A DNA stretch of 41,766 nucleotides from Pseudomonadota bacterium. Its GTDB lineage: Bacteria; Pseudomonadota; Alphaproteobacteria; UBA828. The position numbers and the translations under genes are program-made. Below the pieces are notes generated by a model. The model did not search any database. It saw only the letters and a list, made by a program, of their open reading frames with translations, and was not told where the DNA came from. The stretch is taken from NCBI GenBank assembly GCA_027624955.1, contig JAQBTG010000036.1, forward strand, positions 1 to 41,766, read 5' to 3'. Shown piece by piece: positions 8,051 through 24,347 of this stretch; the first letter of the stretch is position 1; every line of letters begins with the position of its first letter.

Positions 8051-8940
8051 TGTCTCGCCACCGTTGAGCGCCCAAAGATACCGGCGGGTTTCCAGATCAG
8101 GGCGAGGATGACCAAGATCAAAATCGCGGTGAAGCCGTACTGATCGGCGATTAGGACTTTCACGGTCGCTTCAACCATGCCAATCAGGAGCGCGGCATAA
8201 AGCGCGCCCGTGAGATTGCCGAGCCCCGCCAGCACGATCACGATAAAAGCTTTCAGCATCAAGGCGCCGCCCATGAGCGGGTGAACGTCCTTGAAGGAAC
8301 TCAGCATGATGCCGGAAACACCGGCCAACGCGCTCGCCAAGGCGAGAACGGCGATATAGACGTTGCGCACGCGTACACCCATGAGGCGCGCCGCGTCGCT
8401 GTTTTGCGCCACGGCACGAATGGCGCGGCCAAAACTGGTGCGCTTGAGAAACGCCGCAAGGATCAAAATTAGGATCAGGGCGGAGCCCCAAATGATGATG
8501 CGCTGATAACTCACGGGTACGGTGGCGACGAGGAAGGAATCGGCGCCCATCGAAAGCGGTTGGGAGTAGGGCGAGGAGTGAAAGAGCTCGGACAGGAGCT
8601 TTAGCAGGCCCGCCTCCATGGCCATGCCGAGACCGAAGGTGGCGATAATGATGGTGGTTTCGAAATCGCGCTGCTTGATCATCCAATGGGCGGAAACGAA
8701 ATAGACGAACGCGCCCATAAAGCCGCCGCAGAGCATGGCGAAGGGCGCCGCAAAGATCAGCGGAAGGCCGAACAATTCGGCCCACATGAGGGCGAAATAG
8801 GCGCCGAGCGTCATAATGATGCCGTGCGCCATGTTGAGCATATTGAAGGCGCCCCACACCAGCACGAGGCCCACCGCCGCCAATGCGTACATGGCGCTGA
8901 ATGTTAGGCCGCTGACGATGATTTGGACGAAATAATCCAT
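8047..8940 (-). CDS. livH: Branched-chain amino acid/amide-type ABC transporter permease (LivH type)
   Basis: This 297-residue membrane permease pairs with the downstream LivM-type protein. The LivH signature is clear: an N-terminal YALAAVGLVLVWGAFNMLNM segment and the coupling region TSFGRAIRAVAQNSDAARLMGV, followed by the LAGVSGIMLSSF and KAFIVIVLAGLGNLTGAL helices. The start at 8940 follows a GAGCGT/GGAAAG purine stretch. A 71-bp gap separates it from livF and a 4-bp overlap joins it to livM, consistent with one operon in the order substrate-binding protein, G, F, H, M. Confidence 0.9.
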   Translation of the reverse strand: MDYFVQIIVSGLTFSAMYALAAVGLVLVWGAFNMLNMAHGIIMTLGAYFALMWAELFGLPLIFAAPFAMLCGGFMGAFVYFVSAHWMIKQRDFETTIIIATFGLGMAMEAGLLKLLSELFHSSPYSQPLSMGADSFLVATVPVSYQRIIIWGSALILILILAAFLKRTSFGRAIRAVAQNSDAARLMGVRVRNVYIAVLALASALAGVSGIMLSSFKDVHPLMGGALMLKAFIVIVLAGLGNLTGALYAALLIGMVEATVKVLIADQYGFTAILILVILALIWKPAGIFGRSTVARQ

Positions 8941-9011
8941 ACGCTCAGTTGCTTTCCATCGGGCGTTTGGCCGTCGCGTTAGGGATTGGCGCTTTGCCCG
9001 TCATCAGTTCA

Positions 9012-9728
9012 TTATCCGCCCAGATAGGTTTCAAGCACTTGCGGGTTCGATTGCAACTCCTCGCCGCCGCCGTGCCACACGATGGTACCGGTATCGATAA
9101 GATGAATTTGTTCAGCCAGATCGATGATGCGGCTGGCGTTTTCCTCGACCAGCAGCAAGGTCCGGCCTTGCGCCTTGAGGTCGCGGATAATGTCGTAGAT
9201 CTGGTCGATAACAATCGGTGCGAGACCGAGTGAAGGCTCGTCCAGCATTAAAATTTCTCCGCCTGCCAACAAGCCGCGGCCGATCGCCAGCATGCGGCGC
9301 TCGCCACCCGAAAGCGTGCGCGCCATTTGCGAGGTGCGCTCCTTAAGGCGCGGCAGCAGGGTGTAGATTTCCTCCACATTCTGCTCAAATTTGGCGTTCG
9401 CTTCCTTGAGATAGGCGCCCATCCGCAAATTGTCGTAAACCGACATTTCGGGAAACAGCATATCGCCCTGGGGAATCATCACCACACCGCGCGCGACGAT
9501 TTTCTCCGCGTCCATGCCTTCGATGCGCTGGCCGTTAAAGGTGATTGTGCCCTTGGTTGGCTTTACCAGGCCTGAAATACAGCGCAGCAGTGTTGTCTTG
9601 CCGTGGCCGTTCGGCCCCAGCAAACTGATCAGCGAGCCTTTCGGGACGTCGAACGTAATGTTGTTGAGGACGTTCTGTCCTTCATAACCCGCATGCAGGC
9701 CTTCAACACTGAGCAGCGCTTCAGCCAT
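9012..9728 (-). CDS. livF: ABC transporter ATP-binding protein (LivF type)
   Basis: This 238-residue nucleotide-binding subunit of the importer has a complete motif set: Walker A GPNGHGKTT at 38-46, Q-loop at MIPQGD near 87, signature LSGGE at 139-143, and Walker B EILMLDEP at 158-165. The LSGGERRMLAIGRGL block is characteristic of LivF rather than LivG. It starts inside the end of livG (8-bp overlap, 9721-9728) after a GAGGGC ribosome-binding site. With LivG it would form the ATP-hydrolysing heterodimer on the cytoplasmic face. Confidence 0.92.
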   Translation of the reverse strand: MAEALLSVEGLHAGYEGQNVLNNITFDVPKGSLISLLGPNGHGKTTLLRCISGLVKPTKGTITFNGQRIEGMDAEKIVARGVVMIPQGDMLFPEMSVYDNLRMGAYLKEANAKFEQNVEEIYTLLPRLKERTSQMARTLSGGERRMLAIGRGLLAGGEILMLDEPSLGLAPIVIDQIYDIIRDLKAQGRTLLLVEENASRIIDLAEQIHLIDTGTIVWHGGGEELQSNPQVLETYLGG

Positions 9729-10527
9729 TTTGCGCCCTCTCGTCCATCATATGCTGCAGGCGGTCGGCCGTTCCTTCGCCGAGATAAACTTCCACCACCT
9801 TGCGGTCGTTGAGAAGCCCCTTGCTGTCGCCTTCATAAATTTTTTCGCCGTGATGCATAATCACCACGCGCTCGGAAAGCTGTAGCAAAAAGCGCATCAC
9901 ATGCTCAATCAAGATGATGGTGACACCTTCCTTGATCAGGCCGCGGACGATCTCCATAACATCGTCAACCTCGTTCGGGTTGAGGCCGCCGACGGGTTCA
10001 TCGATCAACAGGAGTTTGGGCTCGGTGGCCAGTGCTCCGGCCATCATCAGCAATTTGCGGTCAAGCACGGGGAGATCGCGAACGATGAGATCAGCCTTGT
10101 CTTGCAGGTTGCACAGGACAAGCGCGCGATCCACCCTTTCGCGCATTTCGCTGCTATAGGTCATGCGCGGAAACCAGCCCTTGTCGCCGAGCCCGAAGGA
10201 GGCGCCTACCAGCGTGTTCTCGCGAATCGACATCGATTCGAAGCCGGCATTGAGCTGAAAGGTGCGCGATATGCCGAGGTGGCAAATGGCATCGGGTTTT
10301 TTATTTGCGATCGGGACTCCGCCGAGCGTAATACTGCCGCTCGTGGCCGGATTAATCCCCGAAATCACGTCCAGGAATGTGGTTTTCCCGGCCCCGTTGG
10401 GGCCGCCAATTCCAACCACATCGCCTGGATAGACATCCAAGTCGAAATCATTGATCGCCGCCAGCCCGCCGAAATATTTAAAAATATTTCGGCAGGCCAA
10501 CAACGGTTGCGTGTCACCATTAGACAT
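9721..10527 (-). CDS. livG: ABC transporter ATP-binding protein (LivG type) with a degenerate signature motif
   Basis: This 268-residue ATP-binding subunit is of LivG type. Walker A GPNGAGKTT is at 42-50, the Q-loop glutamine is Q91 in SRTFQLNAGF, Walker B LLLIDEP is at 172-178 and the switch histidine is H209 in LIEHVM. The C-terminal part resembles the LivG extension. The ABC signature that normally reads LSYGQQR or LSGGQ is replaced by LPVLDRK at 152-158, although the flanking helix (LLMMAGALATEP) is in place. The partner LivF keeps LSGGE, so one composite ATP site would be non-canonical. The substrate-binding protein gene ends 45 bp upstream and livF overlaps downstream. Confidence 0.88.
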   Translation of the reverse strand: MSNGDTQPLLACRNIFKYFGGLAAINDFDLDVYPGDVVGIGGPNGAGKTTFLDVISGINPATSGSITLGGVPIANKKPDAICHLGISRTFQLNAGFESMSIRENTLVGASFGLGDKGWFPRMTYSSEMRERVDRALVLCNLQDKADLIVRDLPVLDRKLLMMAGALATEPKLLLIDEPVGGLNPNEVDDVMEIVRGLIKEGVTIILIEHVMRFLLQLSERVVIMHHGEKIYEGDSKGLLNDRKVVEVYLGEGTADRLQHMMDERAQNG

Positions 10528-10572
10528 TGGTCAGGTAGTTGCTCTGACTTCTCATTCGTCCCTGTCCCTAGG

Positions 10573-11967
10573 CTATTTGAGCCAGGGCGGGTTCATCCAT
10601 TCGGCACTGTCATAAGGCTCCGGCGCCACAAAGACGACGTCCTTAGTCCAGTCCTGGCACTGCATGATCAATGTCGGCATGCCGAGCGAGGTATCGTTGG
10701 TCTCCGCCGGATACGGCTGAGCCGCTTGGCCCCACATATATTTGATGGTGCCGACGACGCCACGATAAATCTGCTCGCGCAGGAAGTGGCAAACCTTCTT
10801 GTTTTGCTCGATGCCGTCATACGGCGCCGCACTGCCGCCCGCGCGGGCGGCCGCGATGGCCCATGTGAAGTAGGAATCATAGACCTGACCGGCGGCGCTT
10901 GGCGATGCGTCGGCGCCATAGCGGTCGCGCGTCTTCTTGTAGAAGGCGAGGCCAATTTCATCCTGCAAGGTGCCGATGGTGGTCGAGCAGAACACGCCAT
11001 GCCCGGTTTCCTTGACGATGTCGAGGAAGGCCCGGAGCTGCAAGGCATACTGCACATAGACCAGGCTTTGTGTCGGGTTCTCGGCAAAGCCGGTTACCAG
11101 ACCGGTCTGATCCGACGGCATACCATGAGTGGCGGCAATCAGGGCCGGAGCTTCGGCGCGTGATTTCACCAACGAGGGTCCCCAGTCATCGACCGGCTGC
11201 GTGACGATATCGTCAATCACCAGATCCCAGCCGAACTGCGGCGCCGTGTCCCTGATGCCGCTGGCGATGGTGATGGCGTAATCGATCGAGCCGGAGAATA
11301 GCGCGATCTTGTTGTTTGGCCGTTTCCATTTACCGGTTTTTTCCAACTCGTCCAGGAAGTAGATCAGACCCGGGCCGTAATAATATTCGGACGGATCGTC
11401 CTGGAAGATGCAGTAGTAGCGGTCAGGATTGTCGCGCACTGCGAACTGATGGCCATACTGCGTGTTGTCATGCAAATACGGGATGCCGGCATCGGCGATG
11501 GTGTCGTACTCGGCTCGCACCGATAACGAATTATAGCCGTTAATGATGGCATGCACATTGTGCCGGTCGATCAGGCGGCGTGCCGCTGATGTCACGGTCT
11601 CGGCGGTGATTTCCTTGGTGTCCTCAAAATGAACTTCGAGTGGACGGCCAAGGATGCCGCCATATTCGTTGATTTCTTCAACCGCCAATTCGATGCCGTA
11701 CTGGAAGTTGCGCGCATCATCCGCGCCCCAACCGGTAAACGGCAACATCGCGCCGACCGGAATCGGCTCGCCGTCAGCCTTGGCGCCGTTGTTGAGCGCG
11801 ACCAATGTATTGGCGCCTGCTACGCCCATGGCTCCGATCGCCACAGAGCCGGCAGTGGACATGAAACCACGCCGCGTCGGGTTGAGTATATCCAGCCCGC
11901 CCGTGGCTTTCATTTCCTCGTCGAATTTCTGTTTCTTGGTCTGATTGTTACGATTGTACCACTGCAT
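10573..11967 (-). CDS. Tat-exported periplasmic substrate-binding protein of the HAAT (amide/branched-chain amino acid) family
   Basis: This is a 464-residue substrate-binding protein for the LivGFHM-type importer. The N-terminus carries a twin-arginine signal (TRRGFMS at 31-37 followed by a hydrophobic stretch to about 58), so it is exported folded, which is less common than Sec export for this family. The mature part begins with PIPVGAMLPFTGWGADDARNFQYG and continues with the type I periplasmic fold (EDTKEITAETVTSAARRLID, YLHDNTQYG). Such sequences fall near the UrtA/FmdD/AmiC-like amide-binding branch. The ATG at 11967 has a GGGAGG ribosome-binding site, which supports the long 30-residue n-region before the arginine pair. 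It is the first gene of the importer operon, and the amidohydrolase at 12880 lies 226 bp upstream in the same direction. Confidence 0.88.
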   Translation of the reverse strand: MQWYNRNNQTKKQKFDEEMKATGGLDILNPTRRGFMSTAGSVAIGAMGVAGANTLVALNNGAKADGEPIPVGAMLPFTGWGADDARNFQYGIELAVEEINEYGGILGRPLEVHFEDTKEITAETVTSAARRLIDRHNVHAIINGYNSLSVRAEYDTIADAGIPYLHDNTQYGHQFAVRDNPDRYYCIFQDDPSEYYYGPGLIYFLDELEKTGKWKRPNNKIALFSGSIDYAITIASGIRDTAPQFGWDLVIDDIVTQPVDDWGPSLVKSRAEAPALIAATHGMPSDQTGLVTGFAENPTQSLVYVQYALQLRAFLDIVKETGHGVFCSTTIGTLQDEIGLAFYKKTRDRYGADASPSAAGQVYDSYFTWAIAAARAGGSAAPYDGIEQNKKVCHFLREQIYRGVVGTIKYMWGQAAQPYPAETNDTSLGMPTLIMQCQDWTKDVVFVAPEPYDSAEWMNPPWLK

Positions 11968-12193: not shown

Positions 12194-12880
12194 TCACACA
12201 TTCGCAAAGGGTTCCAGCGAATTGAGGTAGCCCAGCACCCGTTCCAGCGGCTCGACATCGCAGTATTTCATGTCGAGGTCGAACAGATTCCATTCGACCG
12301 CGGCGGGCACTCGGTCGCCGACACATTCTTTCACCACGACGCTGCGAAAGCCTTCGCCAAGGGCGTCCTCGACCGTATGGCGGACACAGCCTGCCATGGT
12401 GACACCGGTGCAGATCAGCGTGTCGATCCGCGCGGCGCGTAGAATTCCAGCCAAATGCGTGCCGGCGAAAGCGCTCGGGCGTTTCTTCACAATCACCGTG
12501 TCGACGCCGTCCTCAGGCGTGATGCGCGAATCGATTTCCGTGGCCGGCGTACCTATCATGAGATCCTCGAACGGCGTTTTGAGCGGAAAGGCGCCCATGT
12601 CGAAGCGGCTGCAAAACGCCGTCGTGGTGTAGATGATCGGTACCTTCTTGGCGCGCGCCAGCTCGTTTAGGCGCTGCACGCCGGGGATGATTTGATCATC
12701 CATATCATTGCACGAGAACCGGTAGCCCGGCCTGGTCCAGGCATTGGCGAGGTCGATGTTGAGAATGGCCGGGCGCTCGCCAAAACCGCTGCGTTGGTTC
12801 CAGCCGCGCTTTTCGTAGAGATCCGAATCAGCCGCGAAAATCGTATCCAGCGCCGCACGCACGTCTTTATCGACTGCCAT
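12194..12880 (-). CDS. Isochorismatase-family cysteine hydrolase, N-carbamoylsarcosine amidase-like
   Basis: This 228-residue protein belongs to the isochorismatase-like cysteine hydrolases. The catalytic triad is visible: D43 in LNIDLANAW, K132 in IVKKRPSAF and C165 in VTMAGCVRHT, with the usual cis-peptide neighbourhood GVTMAGC. Overall it is most like N-carbamoylsarcosine amidase, which converts N-carbamoylsarcosine to sarcosine, CO2 and ammonia; ureidoacrylate or other carbamoyl amidases are alternatives. An N-terminal extension of about 35 residues before the core is typical of that subgroup. A GAGGAG-type ribosome-binding site precedes the ATG at 12880. It is divergent from the amidase at 12990, sharing a 109-bp intergenic region, and lies upstream of the importer genes, so it probably acts on the imported compound or a product of it. 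Confidence 0.82.
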   Translation of the reverse strand: MAVDKDVRAALDTIFAADSDLYEKRGWNQRSGFGERPAILNIDLANAWTRPGYRFSCNDMDDQIIPGVQRLNELARAKKVPIIYTTTAFCSRFDMGAFPLKTPFEDLMIGTPATEIDSRITPEDGVDTVIVKKRPSAFAGTHLAGILRAARIDTLICTGVTMAGCVRHTVEDALGEGFRSVVVKECVGDRVPAAVEWNLFDLDMKYCDVEPLERVLGYLNSLEPFANV

Positions 12881-12989
12881 TGTTTCTGCTCCTCTTGTCG
12901 GGGGCGGGCAAGGTAACGCATATTTCGCAGGGTAAGAAGAGTAAGTGTAAGAAGTATATTAAAAGCTATTAAATTGAGGAGTGCGCGCG

Positions 12990-14405
12990 ATGTCCGAGCC
13001 GGACCTATGCTATCTGAGCGCCAGCGAGGCCTTGGCCCAGTTCCGTGCCAAGACGCTGTCGCCGGTCGAATTGATGCAGGCCGTTGTTGCGCGCTGTGAA
13101 GACGTAAACCCGCGCCTCAACGCGTTTACCTATACGTTTTTCGAACGCGCCCTCGAGCAAGCACAAGAAGCTGAAACGAGATATGCCAAAGGCGAAGCGC
13201 GCGCCCTCGAGGGCCTGCCGCTAGGCGTCAAGGATTTTCACGCCGTCGCCGGCGAGATCACCACCCTCGGCTCGAAGATTTTCGAACATAATCGCCCGGA
13301 GCGCACGGCGCCCACTGTCGCCCGGCTGCTCGACGCCGGCGCCATCATGCATTGCCGCACCACGACTCCGGAATTCGCGCATGCGCCGGTCACCCATTCG
13401 CCGCTCTGGGGCGTCACGCGCAACCCGTGGAATTTGGACTATACGCCGGGTGGCTCGTCGGGCGGCGCAGGTGCTGCGCTCGCCGCCGGCATGACCTTCC
13501 TTGCAGACGGCACCGATGCCGGCGGCTCGGTGCGGATGCCGGCCTCGGCCTGTGGCATTGTCGGCTATAAGCCACCGTTCGGGCGCAACCCGCTCGACCG
13601 TGATCACCCGCTCGAAAGCTTGCTCCATTACGGGCCGATGGCGCGCAGCGTCGGCGACGCGGCATTGATGCAAAATGTCATGTCGGGCGCGCATCCAGAC
13701 GATATCTGCTCGCTGCGCGAGGACCTTGTCATCCCGGAGGCTCTCGACGGCATTAAGGGCTGGAAAATTGCTCTCTCGATGGATCTCGGCTTTTTCGAAA
13801 TCGCGCCCGAAGTGCGCGACAAAACGCTGGAAGCTGCCGACCTATTCCGCGCCATGGGCTGCCAGGTCGAGGAAGTGTCGCTCGATTGGAGCTACGCTAT
13901 TCATGATCCCTATCTGCAATATTGGGAGGGCATGGCGGCGACCACACTGGCGCAATATTTGCCAGAATGGCGCGACCGGATGGACCCCTATATGGCCGGC
14001 ATCGTCGAGAACGGCGCCGGCCACACGGCGGCGACGCAATATCAATGCAATCTGGTGCGCGGCCAAATGTACCAGGCGCTGGCGCCGATCCTCGATAACT
14101 ATGATGTGATGATCTGTCCGGCGCTCTCGGTGCCGTCGGTCAAGGCGGAGCACAATCTGGCCGACCCCGATTTCCAAATCAACGGCAAGCCCACCGAGGC
14201 TTATCTCGGCTGGAACCTGTGCTACCCGTTCAATATGGTCAGCCAATGCCCGGTGATCTCGGTGCCGAACGGCTTTTGCCCCGACACCGGCGTGCCAATC
14301 GGCCTGCAAATCGCCGCCCGCAGCTACGACGATCTCCGCGTTTTCCGCGCCGCCGCCGCATTCGAGCGCGCGCGCCCGTGGAAGGATGCGCGCCCGGCGC
14401 TTTAG
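12990..14405 (+). CDS. Amidase (amidase signature family)
   Basis: This 471-residue amidase-signature enzyme cleaves carboxamide bonds. The Ser-cisSer-Lys triad is visible: K81 in LPLGVKDF, the GGSSGGA glycine/serine loop at 154-160 and the nucleophile S180 in GTDAGGSVRMP. The C-terminal PFNMVSQCPVISVPNGF and GLQIAARSYDD blocks are those of the GatA/AmiC-like group. A GTG nine bases upstream is in frame, but the ATG at 12990 is preceded by GAGGAG at 8 bases and is the better start. It is the first gene of the rightward arm of the ureide locus. No GatB or GatC is nearby, so a role as tRNA amidotransferase is unlikely; a catabolic amidase or allophanate/biuret-type hydrolase is more likely. Confidence 0.88.
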   Translation: MSEPDLCYLSASEALAQFRAKTLSPVELMQAVVARCEDVNPRLNAFTYTFFERALEQAQEAETRYAKGEARALEGLPLGVKDFHAVAGEITTLGSKIFEHNRPERTAPTVARLLDAGAIMHCRTTTPEFAHAPVTHSPLWGVTRNPWNLDYTPGGSSGGAGAALAAGMTFLADGTDAGGSVRMPASACGIVGYKPPFGRNPLDRDHPLESLLHYGPMARSVGDAALMQNVMSGAHPDDICSLREDLVIPEALDGIKGWKIALSMDLGFFEIAPEVRDKTLEAADLFRAMGCQVEEVSLDWSYAIHDPYLQYWEGMAATTLAQYLPEWRDRMDPYMAGIVENGAGHTAATQYQCNLVRGQMYQALAPILDNYDVMICPALSVPSVKAEHNLADPDFQINGKPTEAYLGWNLCYPFNMVSQCPVISVPNGFCPDTGVPIGLQIAARSYDDLRVFRAAAAFERARPWKDARPAL

Positions 14406-15014: not shown

Positions 15015-15938
15015 TTGGCATCGGAATATCCACGAGATCTTTTTGGTTACGGCCCCACACCGCCGGCCGCCAATTGGCCCGGCGGCGCGCGCATCGCGTT
15101 ATCGCTCGTGCTCAATTACGAAGAGGGCGCTGAGAATACTGTGCTGCACGGCGATGCCGGCTCCGAGCAGTTCCTCGCCGATATCGGCCCGGCGCAGATT
15201 GAGCCGCTTGTGGGCGTGCGCGCCTACAACACCGAATCGATGTTCGAATATGGCTCGCGCGCCGGCTTTTGGCGTATTCACAGGCTGCTGACGTCGCGCC
15301 AAATCCCGCTCACCGTTTATGGCGTCGGCATGGCGCTCGAGCGCAATCCCGTGGGTGCGAAGGCGATGGCCGAGGCCGGCTGGGAAGTGGCCAGCCACGC
15401 TTATCGCTGGATTAATTACGGCGATATGCCTGAGACTGAAGAGCGCGAGCAAATTCAGCGCGCCATCGCGGCGGTCGAAAACACCGTCGGCGAACGCCCG
15501 GTCGGTTGGTATTGCGGACGTGTCGGTCCCAACACCCGCCGGCTGATCGTGGAGGAGGGTGGCTTTTTGTATGATTCCGATTCCTATGCGGATGACCTGC
15601 CCTATTGGAATCATGAGCATGGCCGGCCGCATTTGATCCTGCCGTATAGCCTCGACAACAATGATATGCGCTTTTCCACCAACGGCATTTTCACCGGCGA
15701 GGATTTCTTCGAATATATCCGCGACGCCTTCGACATGCTCTATGCCGAGGGCGCGCAGACGCCGAAGATGATGTCGGTCGGCCTGCATTGCCGCCTGGTC
15801 GGGCGGCCGGGCCGCATCAATGGCCTGGCGCGGTTTTTGGATCATGTCGCGGCGCATGACGATGTGTGGATCACCCGGCGCCGCGATATAGCTGCCCATT
15901 GGATCGCCAACCACCCACCAAAAGGGGGTGCGGCATGA
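15015..15938 (+). CDS. puuE: PuuE-type allantoinase / polysaccharide deacetylase-family protein, copy 1
   Basis: This 307-residue protein matches the PuuE family, allantoinases of polysaccharide-deacetylase fold that open allantoin to allantoate. The family-wide blocks are all present: YPRDLFGYGPTPP at the N-terminus, NYEEGAE and LHGDAGSE near 34-51, EYGSRAGFWR at 78-87, SHAYRW at 127-132, WYCGRVGPNTRRL at 165-177, YDSDSYADDLPYW near 186-198 and LHCRLVGRPGR near the C-terminus. The predicted start is TTG at 15015, giving the N-terminus usual for PuuE; it has only a weak AGG upstream. Its stop overlaps the ATG of copy 2 as ATGA. Compared with classical PuuE, SHGYRW is changed to SHAYRW. Allantoin is the default substrate, but in this context a hydantoin or methylated ureide is equally possible. 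Confidence 0.85.
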   Translation: MASEYPRDLFGYGPTPPAANWPGGARIALSLVLNYEEGAENTVLHGDAGSEQFLADIGPAQIEPLVGVRAYNTESMFEYGSRAGFWRIHRLLTSRQIPLTVYGVGMALERNPVGAKAMAEAGWEVASHAYRWINYGDMPETEEREQIQRAIAAVENTVGERPVGWYCGRVGPNTRRLIVEEGGFLYDSDSYADDLPYWNHEHGRPHLILPYSLDNNDMRFSTNGIFTGEDFFEYIRDAFDMLYAEGAQTPKMMSVGLHCRLVGRPGRINGLARFLDHVAAHDDVWITRRRDIAAHWIANHPPKGGAA

Positions 15939-16861
15939 ATACCAGCGATTACCCGCGTGACATGATGGGCTTCGGCCCGACGCCGCCTGAGGCCGATTGG
16001 CCAAACGGCGCGCGCATCGCCATCTCGTTCGTCATCAATCACGAGGAAGGGGCGGAGAGCAGCATCCTGCACGGCGACGCACAGTCTGAGCGTTACCTCT
16101 GCGATCTCGGGCCGGTCGAGGTTCCGCCGGTGGTTGGCGGGCGCGATCTCAACGCTGAATCCATGTTCGAATATGGCGCCCGCGCGGGTTTCTGGCGGCT
16201 GCGGCGCATCTTCACCGAAGCGCAGGTGCCGGTCACCGTTTATGGTGTCGGCATGGCGCTTGAGCGCACGCCCGAAGCGGCGGCGGCGATGGTCGAAGCC
16301 GGCTGGGAAGTGGCCGGGCACGGCTATCGCTGGATCGATTACCGCGACGTCCCGGAAGATGTCGAGCGTGCGCATATTGCGCAATGCGTCGATGCCATCG
16401 CCACCACCATTGGCGAACGCCCGGTCGGCTGGTTCGGCGGTCGGCGCAGCATCCATACTCGCCGTCTCATCGTTGAGGAAAATGGGTTCCTCTATGATTC
16501 AGATGGCTATAGCGACGATCTGCCCTATTGGAATACGGATCACGGCCGGCCCCATTTGATCGTGCCCTATAGCCGCAACAACAATGACCTGCGCTTCGCC
16601 GCTGGCGGCGTCTACACCGCTGGCGATTTCTTTGCCTATCTGCGGGACAGTTTCGACACGCTCTATGCCGAAGGCGCGGAGTATCCCAAGATGATGTCGA
16701 TCGGCCTGCACAACCGCCTGATCGGCCGCCCGGGCCGCGCCGGCGCGCTGCTCCGTTTCCTAGATCATGTGCACAAGCATGACGGCGTGTGGTTCGCCCG
16801 GCGCCGCGAAATCGCTGAGCATTGGCACGCTCGCCATCCCTACCAAGCGCCCGGCACCTGA
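15935..16861 (+). CDS. PuuE-type allantoinase / polysaccharide deacetylase-family protein, copy 2
   Basis: This 308-residue protein is a tandem paralogue of the gene just upstream, starting with ATG in an ATGA overlap after an AAGGGGG ribosome-binding site. It shares the fold-defining blocks (YPRDMMGFGPTPP, NHEEGAE, LHGDAQSE, EYGARAGFWR, YDSDGYSDDLPYW). Several positions usually conserved in PuuE differ: WYxGRxGPNTR has become WFGGRRSIHTR at 166-176, the central LHCRL is LHNRL, and NYEEG is NHEEG. It keeps GHGYRW (128-133) where copy 1 has SHAYRW. The pair may act on different ureides or form a heteromer. Transcription probably continues from copy 1; a repeat element begins right after its stop codon. 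Confidence 0.82.
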   Translation: MNTSDYPRDMMGFGPTPPEADWPNGARIAISFVINHEEGAESSILHGDAQSERYLCDLGPVEVPPVVGGRDLNAESMFEYGARAGFWRLRRIFTEAQVPVTVYGVGMALERTPEAAAAMVEAGWEVAGHGYRWIDYRDVPEDVERAHIAQCVDAIATTIGERPVGWFGGRRSIHTRRLIVEENGFLYDSDGYSDDLPYWNTDHGRPHLIVPYSRNNNDLRFAAGGVYTAGDFFAYLRDSFDTLYAEGAEYPKMMSIGLHNRLIGRPGRAGALLRFLDHVHKHDGVWFARRREIAEHWHARHPYQAPGT

Positions 16862-17085: not shown

Positions 17086-17523
17086 ATGCCATACAAAGCC
17101 ACAAAGGCCGGTTTGAATGCGGCGTTCGACGATTGGACCAACGCCCTCAACGCAGGCGATCTCAAATCCTTCTACAATTTCTTCGACGCCCGGTCGGAAA
17201 TTCTCGACGAGGATTATCCCTGGCGTATGAACAAGGAAGAATTTGTCGATCACATCGGCTTTCATGCCGGCGTCACCGGCAACCCGGCGGTGTGGGAGCA
17301 TTTCAAATGGATTCCGCGCGATGTCGAGGCCAAGATTTGGAACAAAACCACCGGCCATGTCAGCGGCTTTTCCACATTCCGCGGTAAGCCGGTCGATGCC
17401 GGCTTCCGCCAGCGTTTTATGGGCTTCACCACAAGCTGGTATCACGACGGCAAGACGTGGAAATTGATCTGTTGGCATCAAAGCGTTCTGGCGGGCCGCA
17501 TCGCCGGCGCCTCGCCGAGTTGA
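17086..17523 (+). CDS. NTF2-like (SnoaL/DUF4440-type) small protein
   Basis: This 145-residue protein has the pattern of the NTF2-like superfamily: an N-terminal helix (LNAAFDDWTNALNAGDLKSFY) followed by a strand-rich part ending YHDGKTWKLICWHQSVLAG. Members act as small isomerases, dehydratases or binding domains; nothing in the sequence fixes the ligand. The ATG at 17086 follows CAGGGAGAAC, a good ribosome-binding site. An in-frame start farther upstream at 16987 lies inside the repeat region and is not supported. The M20 hydrolase starts 7 bp downstream, so the two are co-transcribed and this protein probably serves the same pathway. Confidence 0.78.
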   Translation: MPYKATKAGLNAAFDDWTNALNAGDLKSFYNFFDARSEILDEDYPWRMNKEEFVDHIGFHAGVTGNPAVWEHFKWIPRDVEAKIWNKTTGHVSGFSTFRGKPVDAGFRQRFMGFTTSWYHDGKTWKLICWHQSVLAGRIAGASPS

Positions 17524-17530
17524 GCGCGCC

Positions 17531-18793
17531 ATGAGCAAATTAGACGAACAAGCTATGGCCGCTGCCAGCGCGGTCGATGAAACCCGTCTCTGGCGCCGCA
17601 TGATGGATATGGCGCGCTTTGGCGCCACGCCGGCCGGCGGCGTCAACCGCGCCGCGTTTTCGCCCGAGGATATTGCGGCGCGTAAACTGCTGATCGAATG
17701 GGCCGGCGAGTTTGGCTTCACCACGGCCAGCGACGAGATCGGCAATCTTTATGTGCGTCGCGCCGGTATCTCGTCCGAAGAGGCGCCGGTGGTGACCGGA
17801 AGCCATCTCGACAGCCAGCCCAAAGGCGGCAAGTTCGATGGCGCCTATGGCGTGGTCGGCGGCTTCGAGGCGCTGGAGGCAATCGAGCGCGCTGGCGTTA
17901 AGACGCGCCGCCCGATCGAGGTGGTCGCCTGGAGCAACGAGGAAGGCGGGCGCTTTCAGCCCGGCGCCATGGGCTCCGCCGTGTTCGCCGGTGATTATCC
18001 GCTCGCCGACGCGCTGAAAGCTATCGATCCCGAGGGCGTGGTGCTGGTTGATGCGCTGAAAGAGACTCTTGAATCGACGCCGGGAATTGCCGAACGGAAG
18101 ATGCCGTTTGCGATGGCCGGTTACGTCGAGGCCCATATCGAGCAAGGCCCGCGCCTCGAGAATGACGATCTCACCATCGGCGTGGTCTCGGGCGTGCAGG
18201 GCCTGTGTTGGTATCGCGTCGAAGTGTTCGGCGTCGAAGCCCATGCCGGTACCGCGCCCCTAAAGGGCCGCAAGGACGCGCTTAAATCGGCGGTCTCGAT
18301 TGTCGCCGCGCTGGAAGATTTGATGGCCGATGAAAGCGACACCGTTCGCTTCACTGTCGGGCGCTTCGAGTGCGGCCCTGGCGCGCCCAGCACGGTGCCG
18401 AGCCATGTCCTCTTTACCGTCGATTTTCGCCATCCCGATCTCGCGACATTTGTGGAACTGGGCGGGCGCATAAAAGCTGTGTGCGAAGCTCATGCGCGCG
18501 GCTGCCGGGTAACCGTCGAGCGCATCATGTATTCCGAGCCCGTGCTGTTCGATCCCGGCGTCATCGAATTGGTGCGTGACAGCGCCCAGGCGCTCGATCT
18601 TCCGAATATGGATATGGTCTCGGGTGCTGGGCACGACGCCATGCATGTTGCCGGATTGTACCCAGCGGGCATGATCTTCGTGCCGTGCGAAAATGGCCTC
18701 AGCCACAACGAAGCCGAGAACGCCAGCGCGCCCGACCTCGCCGCCGGTGCCCGGGTGCTTGCCGCCTGTCTCGTCGGCCTAGCCAACCGCTAA
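17531..18793 (+). CDS. M20-family N-carbamoyl-L-amino-acid hydrolase / allantoate amidohydrolase
   Basis: This 420-residue binuclear-metal amidohydrolase belongs to the hydantoinase/carbamoylase (HyuC, AmaB, AllC) group, which removes the carbamoyl or ureido group from N-carbamoyl amino acids or allantoate. Metal ligands are visible: H92 in TGSHLDSQP, D103 in KFDGAYG, E137/E138 in WSNEEGGRF, H202 in EAHIEQGP and H392 in GLSHNEAE. The dimerisation/lid domain sits between the HIEQGP and GAGHDAMH blocks. It is the natural partner of both the PuuE homologs (allantoate) and HyuAB (N-carbamoyl amino acids), so the sequence alone does not decide the substrate. The start follows the NTF2-like stop by 7 bp, and the flavoprotein gene begins 5 bp after its own stop. 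Confidence 0.88.
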   Translation: MSKLDEQAMAAASAVDETRLWRRMMDMARFGATPAGGVNRAAFSPEDIAARKLLIEWAGEFGFTTASDEIGNLYVRRAGISSEEAPVVTGSHLDSQPKGGKFDGAYGVVGGFEALEAIERAGVKTRRPIEVVAWSNEEGGRFQPGAMGSAVFAGDYPLADALKAIDPEGVVLVDALKETLESTPGIAERKMPFAMAGYVEAHIEQGPRLENDDLTIGVVSGVQGLCWYRVEVFGVEAHAGTAPLKGRKDALKSAVSIVAALEDLMADESDTVRFTVGRFECGPGAPSTVPSHVLFTVDFRHPDLATFVELGGRIKAVCEAHARGCRVTVERIMYSEPVLFDPGVIELVRDSAQALDLPNMDMVSGAGHDAMHVAGLYPAGMIFVPCENGLSHNEAENASAPDLAAGARVLAACLVGLANR

Positions 18794-18798
18794 AAGTC

Positions 18799-20280
18799 AT
18801 GGACAAATTCAGCGCCGATGTCGCCATCGTCGGGGCCGGCAATGCCGCTCTCTGCGCCGCCCTCGCGGCAGCCGAAGCAGGAGCCAGCGTCGTCGTGTTG
18901 GAGGCAGCACCCGAAGGCGAGCGCGGCGGCAATTCCGCCTATACAGCAGGCGCCATGCGCACCGTCTTTGACGGCATCGCCGATGTCCGCAAACTGGTTC
19001 CCGACATCAATGACGAAGACGCCAAAAAAACCGATTTCGGCAGTTATTCGTTCGATCAATATTTTGATGACATGGCGCGCATCACGCAGCACCGCGCCGA
19101 TCCCGATCTGCTTGAAATCCTGATCCGCCAAAGCCTGCCGACGCTCGAATGGATGCGTGGCCACGGCGTGCGCTTTCAGCCGAGCTATGGCCGCCAAGCC
19201 TTCAAGGTGGATGGCCGCTTCAAGTTTTGGGGCGGCCTCGCAGTCGAAACCTGGGGCGGCGGGCCTGGCTTGGTGCAGGCGCTGTTCGACGGCGCAAGCC
19301 AAGCAGGGGTACGCGTGGTGTACGGTGCGCGTGCCCGCGAGTTGGTGCTGGGCGGCGGGCGCGTTGAAGGCGTACGCGCGAGTTTACGCGGCGGCGAGAC
19401 GCTCGAAATTGCCGCCGGCGCAGTGGTTTTGGCGAGCGGTGGCTTCGAAGCCAACGCGGAAATGCGCGCGCGCTACCTCGGCCCGGGTTGGGACCTCGCC
19501 AAGGTGCGTGGCTCGCGCCACAATATGGGCGACGGAATCCAGATGGCGCTTGCAGTCGGTGCCGAGCCGTTCGGCAACTGGTCCGGTTGCCATGCGGTCG
19601 GCTGGGATATGAACGCGCCGCCTTACGGTGATCTCGCGGTTGGCGACGGCTTTCAAAAGCACAGCTATCCGTTCGGCATCATGGTCAACGCGCTGGGCCA
19701 GCGCTTCCTCGATGAGGGCGCCGATTTTCGCAACTACACTTACGCCAAATACGGCCGTGAAATTCTCGCCCAGCCCGGCCAGTTCGCCTGGCAGATTTTC
19801 GACGCCAAAGTGACGCATTTGCTGCGCGACGAATACCGCATCCGCGAGGTCACCCGCGTGACGGCGGACAGCATTGGGGATCTAGCCGCCAAGATGGAAG
19901 GCGTCGATGCCGCGCGTCTAGCCCGGACGATCGGCGAATTCAACACCGCCGTACAGACGGACGTGGCGTTTGATCCCAATGTCAAGGATGGCCGTGGCAC
20001 GGCCGGCCTGGCGGTCGCCAAATCAAATTGGGCCAATCCGCTCGATACCCCGCCCTATGAAGCCTACGGCGTCACCTGCGGAATCACCTTTACCTTTGGC
20101 GGCTTGCATATTGACGGCAACGGGCGGGTGCTTGATGTTGCCGCGGACCCGATCCCCGGCCTCTATGCGGCGGGCGAGTTGGTCGGCGGGTTGTTCTATT
20201 TCAACTATCCCGGCGGCACCGGTTTAACGGCCGGCGCCGTGTTCGGCCGCCGCGCCGGCAGCGCGGCAGCCAAAAGCTAA
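18799..20280 (+). CDS. FAD-dependent dehydrogenase, TcuA (tricarballylate dehydrogenase)/fumarate reductase flavoprotein type
   Basis: This 493-residue flavoprotein has the N-terminal FAD-binding motif VAIVGAGNAALCAALAAAEA and the following RGGNSAYTAGAMR block, which is typical of the TcuA branch of the fumarate reductase/succinate dehydrogenase flavoprotein family. The C-terminal GGLHIDGNGRVLD and GLYAAGELVGGLFYFNYPGGTG blocks complete the FAD site. TcuA oxidises tricarballylate to cis-aconitate, but many homologs reduce or oxidise other substrates. The ATG at 18799 is chosen over a longer frame because the extension would overlap the M20 gene and has unrelated sequence. It is the last gene of the rightward arm, convergent with hyuB 30 bp away. 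No TcuB or TcuC partner is nearby. Confidence 0.8.
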   Translation: MDKFSADVAIVGAGNAALCAALAAAEAGASVVVLEAAPEGERGGNSAYTAGAMRTVFDGIADVRKLVPDINDEDAKKTDFGSYSFDQYFDDMARITQHRADPDLLEILIRQSLPTLEWMRGHGVRFQPSYGRQAFKVDGRFKFWGGLAVETWGGGPGLVQALFDGASQAGVRVVYGARARELVLGGGRVEGVRASLRGGETLEIAAGAVVLASGGFEANAEMRARYLGPGWDLAKVRGSRHNMGDGIQMALAVGAEPFGNWSGCHAVGWDMNAPPYGDLAVGDGFQKHSYPFGIMVNALGQRFLDEGADFRNYTYAKYGREILAQPGQFAWQIFDAKVTHLLRDEYRIREVTRVTADSIGDLAAKMEGVDAARLARTIGEFNTAVQTDVAFDPNVKDGRGTAGLAVAKSNWANPLDTPPYEAYGVTCGITFTFGGLHIDGNGRVLDVAADPIPGLYAAGELVGGLFYFNYPGGTGLTAGAVFGRRAGSAAAKS

Positions 20281-20310: not shown

Positions 20311-22308
20311 TTATTCTGCCGCTTCGCCGAGTTCGGCGAGGTTGTCGTTCCAATGGTCGGCGCTGCGCTTTTGCATCGAGGCGCGGTTCTGCTCGGTCGA
20401 TATCGGCATTAGCTCGCCGGTGCCCCAATCGACGATCACGCCGTAGCGCCGGATCATGTCGAAGCTGTTGATTTCGCCTTTGGCATAGCGCGCGGCGATT
20501 GTCGCCGGGTCTTCCTTCAGCCAGCCGCGGCGTGACTTGGCGATCTCACGCCGCGCCGCCTTGGTGGCTTCGACATCGACCTCATACTGCTCAAGATCCT
20601 TGTCGATCACTTTCAAGACGACGCCGTAATCCATCTTGGCCCGCCCGATTGAAACATAATCTTCTTCGACATCGAGCATCACCGCCGCCGGATCGCGCTC
20701 TAACGGATCGCCGAGCCCGCCGCCGCCGGCGGTCGGGCGGCTGAACATATCGCCTGGTTCGATATCGACATCGGAGAAAATAGTGCCGAGCCATTCCTTC
20801 TCGCCGGTCGCGGCGCGTTTCACCCAGAGGCCGTGCGGCATCGACGGCAGGCCGCCTTTGATGCCCCAGACGATGGCGCGCTCGCGGTCGCAAATATAGG
20901 ACAGCACGGTACTCTCAGCTTCGCGCAGCGTGCTCGTTTTGACCACGCCGGTGCCGCCGCGGAATTTTCCTGGCCCGGCTGAATCGCACTGAATTTCGAA
21001 TTCATTGGCGAGGATCGGCGACAGCCGCTCCTGGCCCTCGATCGGCTGGGTCTGCAGGCCGGTACCGAAGCAGGCGGTGGTGACGTTGCAACCGTCCTTG
21101 GTGGAACGGCCGCCCCAGCCGCCGGGCAGCCAGTCATAAAACATGAAGATCGGGTTGCCCTCGTGGCGCGTATCGCGCCCGCCGGTGAGCAGATATTCGA
21201 GATTGAAGGCGCAGGCCATGGCGCGGTGCGGGAAGATGTCGGACCAGATTTCATAGATCGAATTCATGATCTTTTCGAACGGCATCAGGAAGCCGGTCAC
21301 CGCCACGGGCCAACGCGCATCGACGATGGAATTCTCCGGCGCGATGACCTTGATCGGCCGATAGAAGCCGGAATTGAGCGGCAAGTCCGGGAAGTAGGTT
21401 TTCATGCCCGCGACGACGCCTGAGAATGTGGCACCGAAAGCGGAATTATAAAGCGTGCTGATGGTGTTATGGCTGCCGGTGAAATCGTAGGTCACCTCGT
21501 CGCCCTTGATTGTCAATTTCACGCAGATCGGAATGAGCCCTTCTTCGGCCCCCGGATCGCGGTCGATATAATCCACGGTCTCCCAGGTGCCGTCAGGCAG
21601 ATCGGCGATGCGCTGGCGCGTCGCCATCTCGACATAGTCTTGCACTTCCTTGAAGCCGGTGACCACCGTGTCTTTACCGTATTTATCCACGAGACGAAGA
21701 ATCTCGCGCTCGGCCACCCGCGTTGCTTCGATCTGGGCGTGCATGTCGCCGATGACGGATTTGGGGTCGCGCGTATTGGCCGCGATCATGTTGGCCACGT
21801 CCTCGCGTAACACGCCCTGGTCAACAATGCGCACCGGCGTGAGGCGGATGCCTTCGCGGAACATTTCCTTGGCCTTCACATCGAACGAGCCGGGCACGCT
21901 GCCGCCAACGTCCGACCAATGGCCGTTCGATTGGCTGAAGGCGATGATCTCGTCGCCGACAAATACCGGGCGGATCAAGCGGACATCGTTGAAATGGGTA
22001 CCGCCGGCATAAGGATCGTTGATGATATAGACGTCGCCCGGTTTCATCGTGCCTTTGAAGACGCGAATCACATCCTTGCAGGTATAATGCAAAGTCCCGA
22101 CATGCACGGCGATGTCCTGGTTGCCTTGGGCGATCGAATCGCCGTTGGCATCATTCAGCGCCGAAGAGAAATCGCGATTGTAGATGACGAAGGAATAGCA
22201 GGTCCGAAGCACCTGCTCGGCCATCTGATCAACGATGGTGATGAAGGAGTTTTTGAGCACCTCGAAGGTGACCGGATCGAGGGTGAGGCCGGTTTTGGCG
22301 TAACTCAT
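20311..22308 (-). CDS. hyuB: Hydantoinase B / N-methylhydantoinase or oxoprolinase beta subunit
   Basis: This 665-residue protein is the HyuB-type subunit of an ATP-dependent hydantoinase/oxoprolinase. Family blocks are seen: DPVTFEVLKNSF, YNRDFSSALNDANGDSIAQGNQ, YIINDPYAGGTHFNDV, the GHWSDVGGSVPGS segment and the later FDWLPGGWGGR-type region (FYDWLPGGWGGRSTKDG). It acts with HyuA to open a five-membered lactam or imide ring such as N-methylhydantoin or 5-oxoproline using ATP. The start at 22308 overlaps the hyuA stop as ATGA and has GGAGG upstream; an in-frame ATG at 22347 lies inside hyuA and is not favoured. The last roughly 100 residues, rich in charged residues, extend beyond the usual HyuB core. 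Acetone or acetophenone carboxylase relatives share the fold but need extra subunits not found here. Confidence 0.87.
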   Translation of the reverse strand: MSYAKTGLTLDPVTFEVLKNSFITIVDQMAEQVLRTCYSFVIYNRDFSSALNDANGDSIAQGNQDIAVHVGTLHYTCKDVIRVFKGTMKPGDVYIINDPYAGGTHFNDVRLIRPVFVGDEIIAFSQSNGHWSDVGGSVPGSFDVKAKEMFREGIRLTPVRIVDQGVLREDVANMIAANTRDPKSVIGDMHAQIEATRVAEREILRLVDKYGKDTVVTGFKEVQDYVEMATRQRIADLPDGTWETVDYIDRDPGAEEGLIPICVKLTIKGDEVTYDFTGSHNTISTLYNSAFGATFSGVVAGMKTYFPDLPLNSGFYRPIKVIAPENSIVDARWPVAVTGFLMPFEKIMNSIYEIWSDIFPHRAMACAFNLEYLLTGGRDTRHEGNPIFMFYDWLPGGWGGRSTKDGCNVTTACFGTGLQTQPIEGQERLSPILANEFEIQCDSAGPGKFRGGTGVVKTSTLREAESTVLSYICDRERAIVWGIKGGLPSMPHGLWVKRAATGEKEWLGTIFSDVDIEPGDMFSRPTAGGGGLGDPLERDPAAVMLDVEEDYVSIGRAKMDYGVVLKVIDKDLEQYEVDVEATKAARREIAKSRRGWLKEDPATIAARYAKGEINSFDMIRRYGVIVDWGTGELMPISTEQNRASMQKRSADHWNDNLAELGEAAE

Positions 22309-24347
22309 TTGGAATCCTCCGCGACGTAAATTCGGATGTTGTGCCACTCGTCTACTTCGGCCCGCACATCGGGCGGGATGACGGTCGTTGAATCGAGCTG
22401 CTCGACAATCGCCGGGCCGTGGAACGTGGCGCCCGCGGCTAGGTCTTCATGGCGGTAGATCGGCGTGTCAATCGGCGCGTCCTGGCCGTCGAACGCGACC
22501 ATACGGGTGGCGCTGGCCACCGGTTTGGCGCCGGTTTTCTCGTGGCGCTGCAATTCGGCCTTTTGCGTGACCCCGATGGCGGTCAGGTTTAAGCGGAACA
22601 GGTCAATGGCGGCATCGTCACGGCGAAAGGCGTATTCGCGCTCATGATCGCGGTGGAAGGCCTCCACGGCGTCATCTACTGACGTAAACGGCGCGCTGAC
22701 TGGTACCGTGAGCGAGCGCCACTGGCCCTCATACATCATGTCGACGGCGCGTTGCAAAAGCATGTCCTTGGGTTCGACGCCCTCAGTTTTCAGCCGTCCC
22801 CGGGCTTCGTCTTCCATCTCAGTAAATTTGGCCTCGATGTCGCTGGCGTCGGCCTTGCTGGCTGGCATCAAATAGCTCTGTGCCAGGTCATGGCGGATAT
22901 CGACGAGGAGACAGCCAAGCGCCGACGTGACGCCCGGATTGGGTGGTATGATAACCGTCGGGATTGCCAGCTCTATCGCCAGCGCCACGCCGTGCAGGGC
23001 GCCCGCGCCGCCGAACGCGACGAGGCAGAAATCGCGCGGATCGTAGCCCCGGCTGATCGAGATAAGCCGCACCGCATCGGCCATGTTGGCGTTGGCGACG
23101 CTGACGATGGACTTGGCAGCTTCGTCCTTCGACATGCCAAGCGGCTTGGCGACGCCGTTGATCACCGCGTTTTCGGCGGCCGCGCCATCGAGCTTGATAC
23201 TGCCGCCGGCGAGCGATGTGCCAAGGCGGCCCAACGTCACATTGGCGTCGGTGTTGGTCGGTACGTCGTTGCCGCGGCCATAACAGGCCGGTCCCGGATC
23301 GGCGCCAGCCGATTGCGGGCCGTTATGCAGCGCGCCCACATCGTCGATCCAGGCAAGCGAGCCGCCGCCTGCGCCGATGGTGAGCACTTCGATGCTGGGG
23401 AAGCGGATGGGATGGCCAAACTCAATGCCCCATTCCTTGGTGACGCGCGATTGCCCGCCGTAAACCAGCGACACGTCGCAGCTTGTGCCGCCCATATCGA
23501 GGCCGATCGAGTTTTCATAACCGCACAGCATAGCAATATGACGGCTGGCGATAGCGCCCGCCGCAATGCCCGAGCCGGCTAAACGTCCGGCGAAATGCTG
23601 CGCGGTGGCAGGTGTCATCACGCCGCCGCCCGAATGCAGCAACAACAGATCGCTCTTATAGCCACCGGCTTTGAGTTCGCTACTCATGCGCTTTACGTAG
23701 CGTCCGATCACCGGGCTGAGAATGGAATTAACCACCGTTGTCGAGAAGCGCTCATGCTCGAAAATTTCGGGCAAGGTATCGCTCGACGTGGTGATATCCG
23801 CATCCGGCACTTCGGCCTTGAGGATTTCCAGCAGGCGCTGTTCGTGCACCGGGTTCATGTAGGAATTCATCAAGCAGATGGCGATCGATTCGACGCCTCG
23901 CTTTTTCAATACCCGCCCCACTTCGCGGGCTTCATCTTCATTGAGCGCCTCGACGATCTGGCCGCCGTGATCGATGCGTTCGGTGACCACCAGCCGGTCA
24001 CGCCGGCGGATATAGGGCGGCGCGACATCCTTATAGGTGTCCCACAGCTCTTCTTTATTAGCGCGGCGAATTTCGATCACATCGCGAAAGCCGCGCGTAC
24101 ACACCATGGCGGCGGGCGGCAGGCGGCGCGTGAGGAGCGCGTTGGTGGCGATCGTCGTGCCATGCGAAAACAGTGTCACGTCCTTGAGATCGACCTTGGC
24201 TTCGCGCAATCCGTTTAAGGTGCCCTCCAGCGGATCATCCGGAGTGGATGAAGTCTTGGCCACACGGACCTGGCCGGTGGCCTCGTCCATGACGCAAATA
24301 TCCGTAAACGTCCCGCCGATATCGACGGCTACTCTAAGGTTAGACAC
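22305..24347 (-). CDS. hyuA: Hydantoinase A / N-methylhydantoinase or oxoprolinase alpha subunit
   Basis: This 680-residue ATP-binding subunit pairs with HyuB. The N-terminal VDIGGTFTDICV (8-19) is the phosphate-binding signature of the hydantoinase/oxoprolinase N-terminal domain. The central part has LLLHSGGGVMTPATA and SIGLDMGGTSCDVSLV, the second actin-like ATPase signature, and later DPGPACYGRG and LVAFGGAGALHG. The ring substrate is phosphorylated by ATP and then hydrolysed. N-methylhydantoin to N-carbamoylsarcosine is the reaction that best fits the N-carbamoylsarcosine-amidase-like gene at 12194; 5-oxoproline is the main alternative. It is the first gene of a two-gene leftward operon with a candidate promoter at 24384-24411. 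Confidence 0.9.
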   Translation of the reverse strand: MSNLRVAVDIGGTFTDICVMDEATGQVRVAKTSSTPDDPLEGTLNGLREAKVDLKDVTLFSHGTTIATNALLTRRLPPAAMVCTRGFRDVIEIRRANKEELWDTYKDVAPPYIRRRDRLVVTERIDHGGQIVEALNEDEAREVGRVLKKRGVESIAICLMNSYMNPVHEQRLLEILKAEVPDADITTSSDTLPEIFEHERFSTTVVNSILSPVIGRYVKRMSSELKAGGYKSDLLLLHSGGGVMTPATAQHFAGRLAGSGIAAGAIASRHIAMLCGYENSIGLDMGGTSCDVSLVYGGQSRVTKEWGIEFGHPIRFPSIEVLTIGAGGGSLAWIDDVGALHNGPQSAGADPGPACYGRGNDVPTNTDANVTLGRLGTSLAGGSIKLDGAAAENAVINGVAKPLGMSKDEAAKSIVSVANANMADAVRLISISRGYDPRDFCLVAFGGAGALHGVALAIELAIPTVIIPPNPGVTSALGCLLVDIRHDLAQSYLMPASKADASDIEAKFTEMEDEARGRLKTEGVEPKDMLLQRAVDMMYEGQWRSLTVPVSAPFTSVDDAVEAFHRDHEREYAFRRDDAAIDLFRLNLTAIGVTQKAELQRHEKTGAKPVASATRMVAFDGQDAPIDTPIYRHEDLAAGATFHGPAIVEQLDSTTVIPPDVRAEVDEWHNIRIYVAEDSK

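Follow-up and report, generated by a model that had tools for sequence, protein, structure and literature searches.

The allantoinase PuuE of Pseudomonas fluorescens (PDB 3cl6, 3cl7 and 3cl8; family TIGR03212) is described as a homotetramer in which each monomer has an independent active site (PMC6983136). HpPgdA, reported to bind the metal of its active site through two histidines (PMC3084791), has a related fold, and the cyclic imidase HxnM is described as falling in the PuuE/HpPgdA neighbourhood (PMC9304392). In Pseudomonas sp. NS671 hydantoins are converted to amino acids by the products of hyuABC, with HyuAB opening hydantoins and HyuC cleaving N-carbamyl amino acids (PMC8453981). The catabolism of N-methylhydantoin and creatinine in Corynebacterium glutamicum ATCC 14067 is attributed to HyuB, CshA and CrnA, and N-carbamoylsarcosine amidase is stated to release sarcosine, ammonia and carbon dioxide (PMC8864220).

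The window analysed here, a stretch of 41,766 nucleotides, carries two PuuE-family genes in tandem on the plus strand. PuuE1 (15015..15938; 307 amino acids) has TTG as its first start codon, PuuE2 (15935..16861; 308 amino acids) starts with ATG, and the stop codon of the former overlaps the start of the latter by 4 bp (ATGA, 15935..15938, plus strand). Both open reading frames and their ATGA junction had been reported in the preliminary description, and both are borne out by our analysis. The two proteins contain the Pfam polysaccharide deacetylase domain and, with 475.3 bits for PuuE1 and 445.6 bits for PuuE2, lie above the curated threshold (424.6 bits) of TIGR03212, the family named "allantoinase PuuE". 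Their best solved relative is PuuE 3cl6 (E values of 3e-123 and 1e-112, respectively), followed by 1z7a and 3s6o. The copies are about 63–65% identical to each other and, across the three genomes in which the pair was found, 57–59% (PuuE1) and 52–53% (PuuE2) identical to 3cl6. The motifs previously noted were confirmed, with SHAYRW, WYCGRVGPNTR and LHCRL in an otherwise PuuE-like PuuE1 and GHGYRW, WFGGRRSIHTR and LHNRL in PuuE2; PuuE2 also has NHEEG and PYSRNNNDLRF.

Pair and copy-specific motifs recur in genomes G008 (loci L038/L146) and G009 (loci L037/L145), and thus do not reflect chance. In these relatives, too, the copies score above the TIGR03212 cut-off (469.4 and 457.6 bits in G008; 455.8 bits for PuuE2 of G009), and an overlap of 4 bp is kept in all three pairs, as ATGA in the window and G008 and as GTGA in G009/L037. 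A pseudogene or an assembly artefact was ruled out, since neither copy is disrupted, both are under constraint and the pair reappears in two further assemblies.

To place these motifs within the family we aligned 113 PuuE-family sequences from the loci, including 3cl6 and 1z7a (L077, of 212 amino acids, was dropped and identical rows were merged). Residue states were counted in 106 rows, the six members of the pairs and L006, a very distant sequence, being excluded, and are numbered according to 3cl6 by the printed alignment. Both copies keep N34, E36, E37, H126, W130, R167, D187, D191, N216, D217, H259 and R261, of which only E37 (99/106) and R167 (105/106) vary at all among the 106 other rows; the catalytic-motif residues among them (N34, E36, E37, H126, W130, H259) are present in both copies of all three genomes. 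Differences from P. fluorescens PuuE include the tandem arrangement, A127 of copy 1, and H35, G125, R213/N214 and N260 of copy 2. Neither variant is found in 3cl6, the only proven PuuE allantoinase of the set, or in the close Pseudomonas aeruginosa structure 1z7a.

The motif blocks that differ between the copies had been taken to be normally invariant. This view stands for G127, which is alanine in PuuE1 and glycine in 104 of the 106 other rows. It had to be dropped as a family rule for WYxGRxGPNTR and LHCRL: column 169 is serine in 79 rows and glycine in 25, column 170 is proline in 76, column 171 is asparagine in 86 and something else in 20 (histidine in 8), and C260, replaced by asparagine in PuuE2, is cysteine in just 79. 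Similarly, the GHGYRW motif said to be kept by copy 2 is indeed there, but the usual form is SHG, so that the leading glycine is itself unusual (S125G; no glycine in any of the 106 rows). The earlier account overlooked this and other rarer changes of PuuE2, namely Y12F (tyrosine in 106/106), Y35H (tyrosine in 104/106), L213R together with D214N (no asparagine at 214 in the 106 rows), G225V (glycine in 104/106) and F226Y (phenylalanine in 102/106). When 98 columns conserved in at least 95% of 87 other rows were compared (a set without the six pair members and without 20 rows that were distant or odd), six fixed changes were counted in PuuE1 and seven in PuuE2; among the latter, Y12F, Y75F, G225V and F226Y are not sequence-adjacent to motif residues.

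The NHEEGxE pattern, searched at the DNA level, occurred in two of 385 genomes of the class, both times as PuuE2. The PuuE of a non-alphaproteobacterial metagenome-assembled genome (L062:7854-8909) combines Y35H with C260N as PuuE2 does, in an otherwise different background; an ORF that reads as L-asparaginase-like adjoins it. As a single case outside the pair, this apparent convergence is a lead only. In L020, L021 and L023, N260 is combined with Y35.

An AlphaFold2 model of PuuE2 (mean pLDDT 80.3, pTM 0.83) matched 3s6o (Z 39.0), 1z7a (38.4), 3cl6 (38.2; rmsd 1.8 over 289 aligned residues), 3rxz (30.3) and HpPgdA (3qbu; 28.9), and it is of low confidence at 42–62 and 215–229, bordering on or partly covering the changed region. 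Membership in the PuuE fold is thus supported by the model for PuuE2 and by sequence alone for PuuE1, and fold as well as catalytic-motif residues are those of the P. fluorescens enzyme. In the alignment to HpPgdA, the His and Trp of the PuuE motif SHGYRW fall on the two metal-binding histidines and H259 falls on active-site His 247; this transfer of residue numbers presupposes, as we infer, that the PDB chain carries a tag. Unlike HpPgdA, which binds its metal via two histidines, PuuE proteins including both copies have a tryptophan (W130) in the second of these positions. The link of HxnM to PuuE by way of HpPgdA (PMC9304392), together with the presence of an amidase gene in the cluster, would be compatible with PuuE2 opening a cyclic imide or lactam-like ring whose product feeds that amidase. 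We regard this as very improbable, given that PuuE2 lies within the PuuE clade proper (in trees built without imidases of the HxnM or Pseudomonas putida YZ-26 type) and that the amidase occurs without PuuE in genome G010.

The pair was found in three of 22 genomes of the order (G000, from which the window derives, G008 and G009), all of them draft assemblies and all belonging to one genus represented by six genomes. The public loci L038 and L037 correspond to G008 and G009 and do not count as additional cases. No additional pair was present among the best places of 385 genomes of the class (query P0002, E<=1e-118; 30 genomes with a match) and 398 of the phylum (query P0002, E<=1e-115; 11 with a match), these best places alone having been read. 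Among 293 plasmid records every match was below 60% identity. Two PuuE-like places per record were seen in Sinorhizobium meliloti records and in one Methylobacterium plasmid (H18, H30–H40).

The family tree called for in the preliminary description was built twice from the 113 rows, with 84 rows and with 52 hand-chosen ones. In the 84-row tree a PuuE1 clade (99) is sister to a PuuE2 clade (100) with an SH-aLRT of 97, and 3cl6 falls in the same region of the tree; the 52-row tree recovers the same sister relationship (97/91), with long stems of 0.92 for PuuE2 and 0.62 for PuuE1 at a median end branch of 0.33. These trees disfavour a juxtaposition of two old PuuE subfamilies of independent origin, although AU tests leave the named alternatives standing: joining L079 with PuuE1 (p 0.266) or with PuuE2 (p 0.226) was not rejected. 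For this reason a local origin of the two copies by duplication is likely rather than proven. Among the three genomes dN/dS was 0.071–0.085 for PuuE1 and 0.064–0.102 for PuuE2, indicating strong purifying selection; values for neighbouring genes between the window and G008 were similar (0.113 for the M20 enzyme, 0.050 for N-carbamoylsarcosine amidase). Duplication followed by divergence, as originally suggested, is therefore supported by the sister position of the copies in both trees, by purifying selection on both, and by the fixed changes that each has acquired.

Retention of both copies under equal constraint, along with the 4-bp overlap in three of three pairs, could also be accounted for if PuuE1 and PuuE2 assembled into a single mixed tetramer and complemented each other there, one tuning, for example, the pocket or the stability of the other. 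The homotetrameric structure of P. fluorescens PuuE (PMC6983136) makes such an assembly geometrically plausible, but its independent active sites also make complementation unnecessary, and neither copy has lost a catalytic-motif residue as typical pseudo-subunits have. We hold a mixed tetramer to be unlikely. Gene overlaps are, moreover, common in bacterial operons.

The genes around the pair point to the breakdown of ring compounds. On the minus strand, an ABC importer of the branched-chain-amino-acid/urea type (two permeases, two ATPases and a binding protein; 7019..11967), which is kept in L146, L184 and L188, is followed by a homologue of N-carbamoylsarcosine amidohydrolase with isochorismatase fold (12194..12880; 229.7 bits to 1nba). 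An amidase-signature amidase (12981..14405, plus strand; PF01425, 300.6 bits) precedes PuuE1. Beyond PuuE2, and likewise on the plus strand, lie a small protein gene without Pfam or NCBIfam match (17110..17523; conserved in L037 and L146), a gene for an M20 hydantoinase/carbamoylase-family amidase of the HyuC, N-carbamoyl-amino-acid hydrolase or allantoate amidohydrolase type (17531..18793; TIGR01879 388.1 bits at a cut-off of 204, with relatives in the PDB) and one for a TcuA-like FAD-dependent dehydrogenase (18685..20280; NF006130 579.8 bits at a cut-off of 369), whose true start is probably near 18799. The minus strand then encodes a HyuB-type subunit of the hydantoinase B/oxoprolinase family (20311..22347; PF02538, 530.6 bits) and a HyuA-type subunit (22305..24347; PF01968) whose best solved relative is the N-methylhydantoinase 7hk5 (473.5 bits). 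A TfoX-N protein is also encoded on the lower-coordinate side of the pair, and an ORF beyond the cluster (25658-26578) partially matches DehI (halocarboxylic acid dehydrogenase) of Pfam.

The product of 17110-17523, provisionally called SnoaL-like, gave no match below E 0.07 in the PDB. Its homologue in G013 (L182, G013:C69, 8114-8506) adjoins genes for sarcosine-oxidase-type subunits, hinting at a role in the breakdown of N-methyl amino acids; a homologue in G216 adjoins SecA.

HyuA, HyuB and an M20 carbamoylase are thus grouped near the pair, an arrangement conserved in L038 and seen likewise in hyuABC of Pseudomonas sp. NS671 (PMC8453981). In comparison with that system the window holds in addition two PuuE-type genes, the N-carbamoylsarcosine amidase homologue and the FAD-dependent dehydrogenase, and no racemase ORF was identified between the amidase gene and PuuE1. 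The NS671 system also has a racemase, HyuE. In G008 the order of the cluster is unchanged, and a gene of the Asp/Glu/hydantoin racemase family (PF01177) is added between amidase and PuuE1; two genes with urea-carboxylase-type carboxyltransferase domains (CT_C_D and CT_A_B) likewise lie between these two, at L146:12011-13916, where the window has the TfoX-N protein. An N-carbamoylsarcosine amidase and a HyuA of the N-methylhydantoinase type are shared with the N-methylhydantoin/creatinine pathway of C. glutamicum ATCC 14067, in which PuuE-type genes are not among the components described (PMC8864220). Among 57 other PuuE loci, a number that includes duplicates, HyuA was near PuuE in four, HyuB in two, the M20 enzyme in nine and N-carbamoylsarcosine amidase in none. 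Genome G010 (L184) possesses transporter, N-carbamoylsarcosine amidase and amidase without the pair, and the cluster therefore probably consists of at least two modules.

By contrast, genes leading from urate to allantoin were missing. OHCU decarboxylase, HIU hydrolase and uricase were each found in none of the six genomes of the genus, while they were detected in 4, 4 and 2 of 14 control genomes, respectively; this absence is a further difference from the P. fluorescens PuuE system. Linkage to these three genes is the usual context of TIGR03212, though not a strict requirement of the family. Creatininase-family genes occur in four of the six genomes, and in the present genome they lie elsewhere. 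As judged from its gene content, the neighbourhood is one of hydantoin-type and not of purine catabolism. The pair sits among genes for hydantoin-type ring degradation and not among uric acid genes, which makes a change of substrate probable for one copy at least. The change of substrate proposed earlier thus receives indirect support, from context.

The chances appear evenly balanced that a lineage-specific PuuE duplication was recruited to hydantoin and N-carbamoyl-amino-acid catabolism and that the pocket of PuuE2 was remodelled for another cyclic ureide. Under this preferred reading, a tandem duplication of the puuE gene would have taken place within a single alphaproteobacterial genus, and the two resulting copies would have been retained and recruited into a cluster that degrades hydantoin-type cyclic ureides and N-carbamoyl amino acids. 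PuuE1 and PuuE2 would be metal-independent ring-opening hydrolases with PuuE fold and catalytic residues, PuuE1 presumably staying nearer the ancestral pocket and PuuE2 having its pocket rebuilt beside the catalytic residues through Y35H, S125G, L213R/D214N and C260N. Both might act on further cyclic ureides in place of, or in addition to, allantoin, with the changes beside the motifs altering the substrate of PuuE2, probably to another cyclic ureide, for instance a hydantoin that is substituted or N-methylated. Cleavage of the resulting carbamoyl compounds could then fall to the M20 enzyme and to the homologue of N-carbamoylsarcosine amidase. What the data establish are sequence, conservation, selection and the families of neighbouring genes, whereas activity, substrate and order of the pathway are inferences. 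Several points argue against this model. HyuAB of the same cluster already opens hydantoins, which would leave a further two ring-opening enzymes partly without need; the part made up of N-carbamoylsarcosine amidase, amidase and transporter may be a separate module, as in G010; and several fixed changes of PuuE2 are away from motif residues in the sequence, the model is weak near the changed region, and the pair was found in just three genomes, all drafts.

Moreover, allantoin might be taken up from outside, and allantoate is also among the substrates of M20 enzymes, in which case the two copies could be ordinary allantoinases, the M20 enzyme an allantoate amidohydrolase and the motif changes neutral drift. 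Such a scheme is compatible with both copies passing the equivalog-domain cut-off of TIGR03212, with the M20 enzyme scoring 400.6 bits for the "allantoate amidohydrolase" subfamily at a cut-off of 399, with the M20 homologues near nine of 57 other PuuE loci (L045 and L148 apparently being the same contig), and with the variability of columns 169–171 and 260 in the family. We nevertheless consider it improbable, as Y35H, S125G and D214N have no or almost no counterpart in the family and as the upkeep of two near-redundant enzymes by strong purifying selection would call for an explanation; the lack of urate-to-allantoin genes in six of six genomes also speaks against it, although this point is moot if allantoin is imported.

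Returning to the preferred reading of a changed substrate, it is conceivable, if doubtful, that PuuE1 and PuuE2 are ATP- and metal-independent hydantoinases acting, for example, on N-methylhydantoin or 5-substituted hydantoins, possibly as a mixed tetramer. If this were true, they would represent a class of hydantoinases of their own, beside the metal-dependent amidohydrolases and the HyuAB enzymes that depend on ATP, and HyuAB of the cluster would serve substrates that the pair cannot open.

The genome contains five places matching PuuE2 at E<=1e-60: the pair and one gene each on contigs C47, C5 and C6. The C47 gene (474.7 bits) scores above the TIGR03212 cut-off, those on C5 (392.1 bits) and C6 (332.9 bits) below it. 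In a paralogue group comprising the C5 gene (L143, G000:C5, 8340-9260), L022 and L030–L034, E37, which adjoins the conserved E36, is replaced by Cys, Gly or Ala (7/106 rows) and the final motif reads LHDRL/I; the C5 member may be another changed enzyme. The C6 paralogue (L144, G000:C6, 8487-9386) is without the G166 column and is located between genes for a periplasmic binding protein and an amidase, with no obvious purine context.

Our study describes a duplication within a known enzyme family that is well conserved, of narrow distribution and set in an unusual context; at the level of titles and abstracts, we found nothing in the literature on tandem PuuE genes or on a hydantoin cluster that contains PuuE. 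The annotation of PuuE proteins as allantoinases is made purely from sequence, and with five PuuE-type genes in a genome that encodes no uricase, HIU hydrolase or OHCU decarboxylase this label is unsafe in the present lineage. The tandem pair offers a natural before-and-after experiment for substrate change in metal-independent hydrolases of the polysaccharide-deacetylase fold. Should it indeed open hydantoins, it would constitute a third route for this reaction, which would be of biochemical and biocatalytic use.
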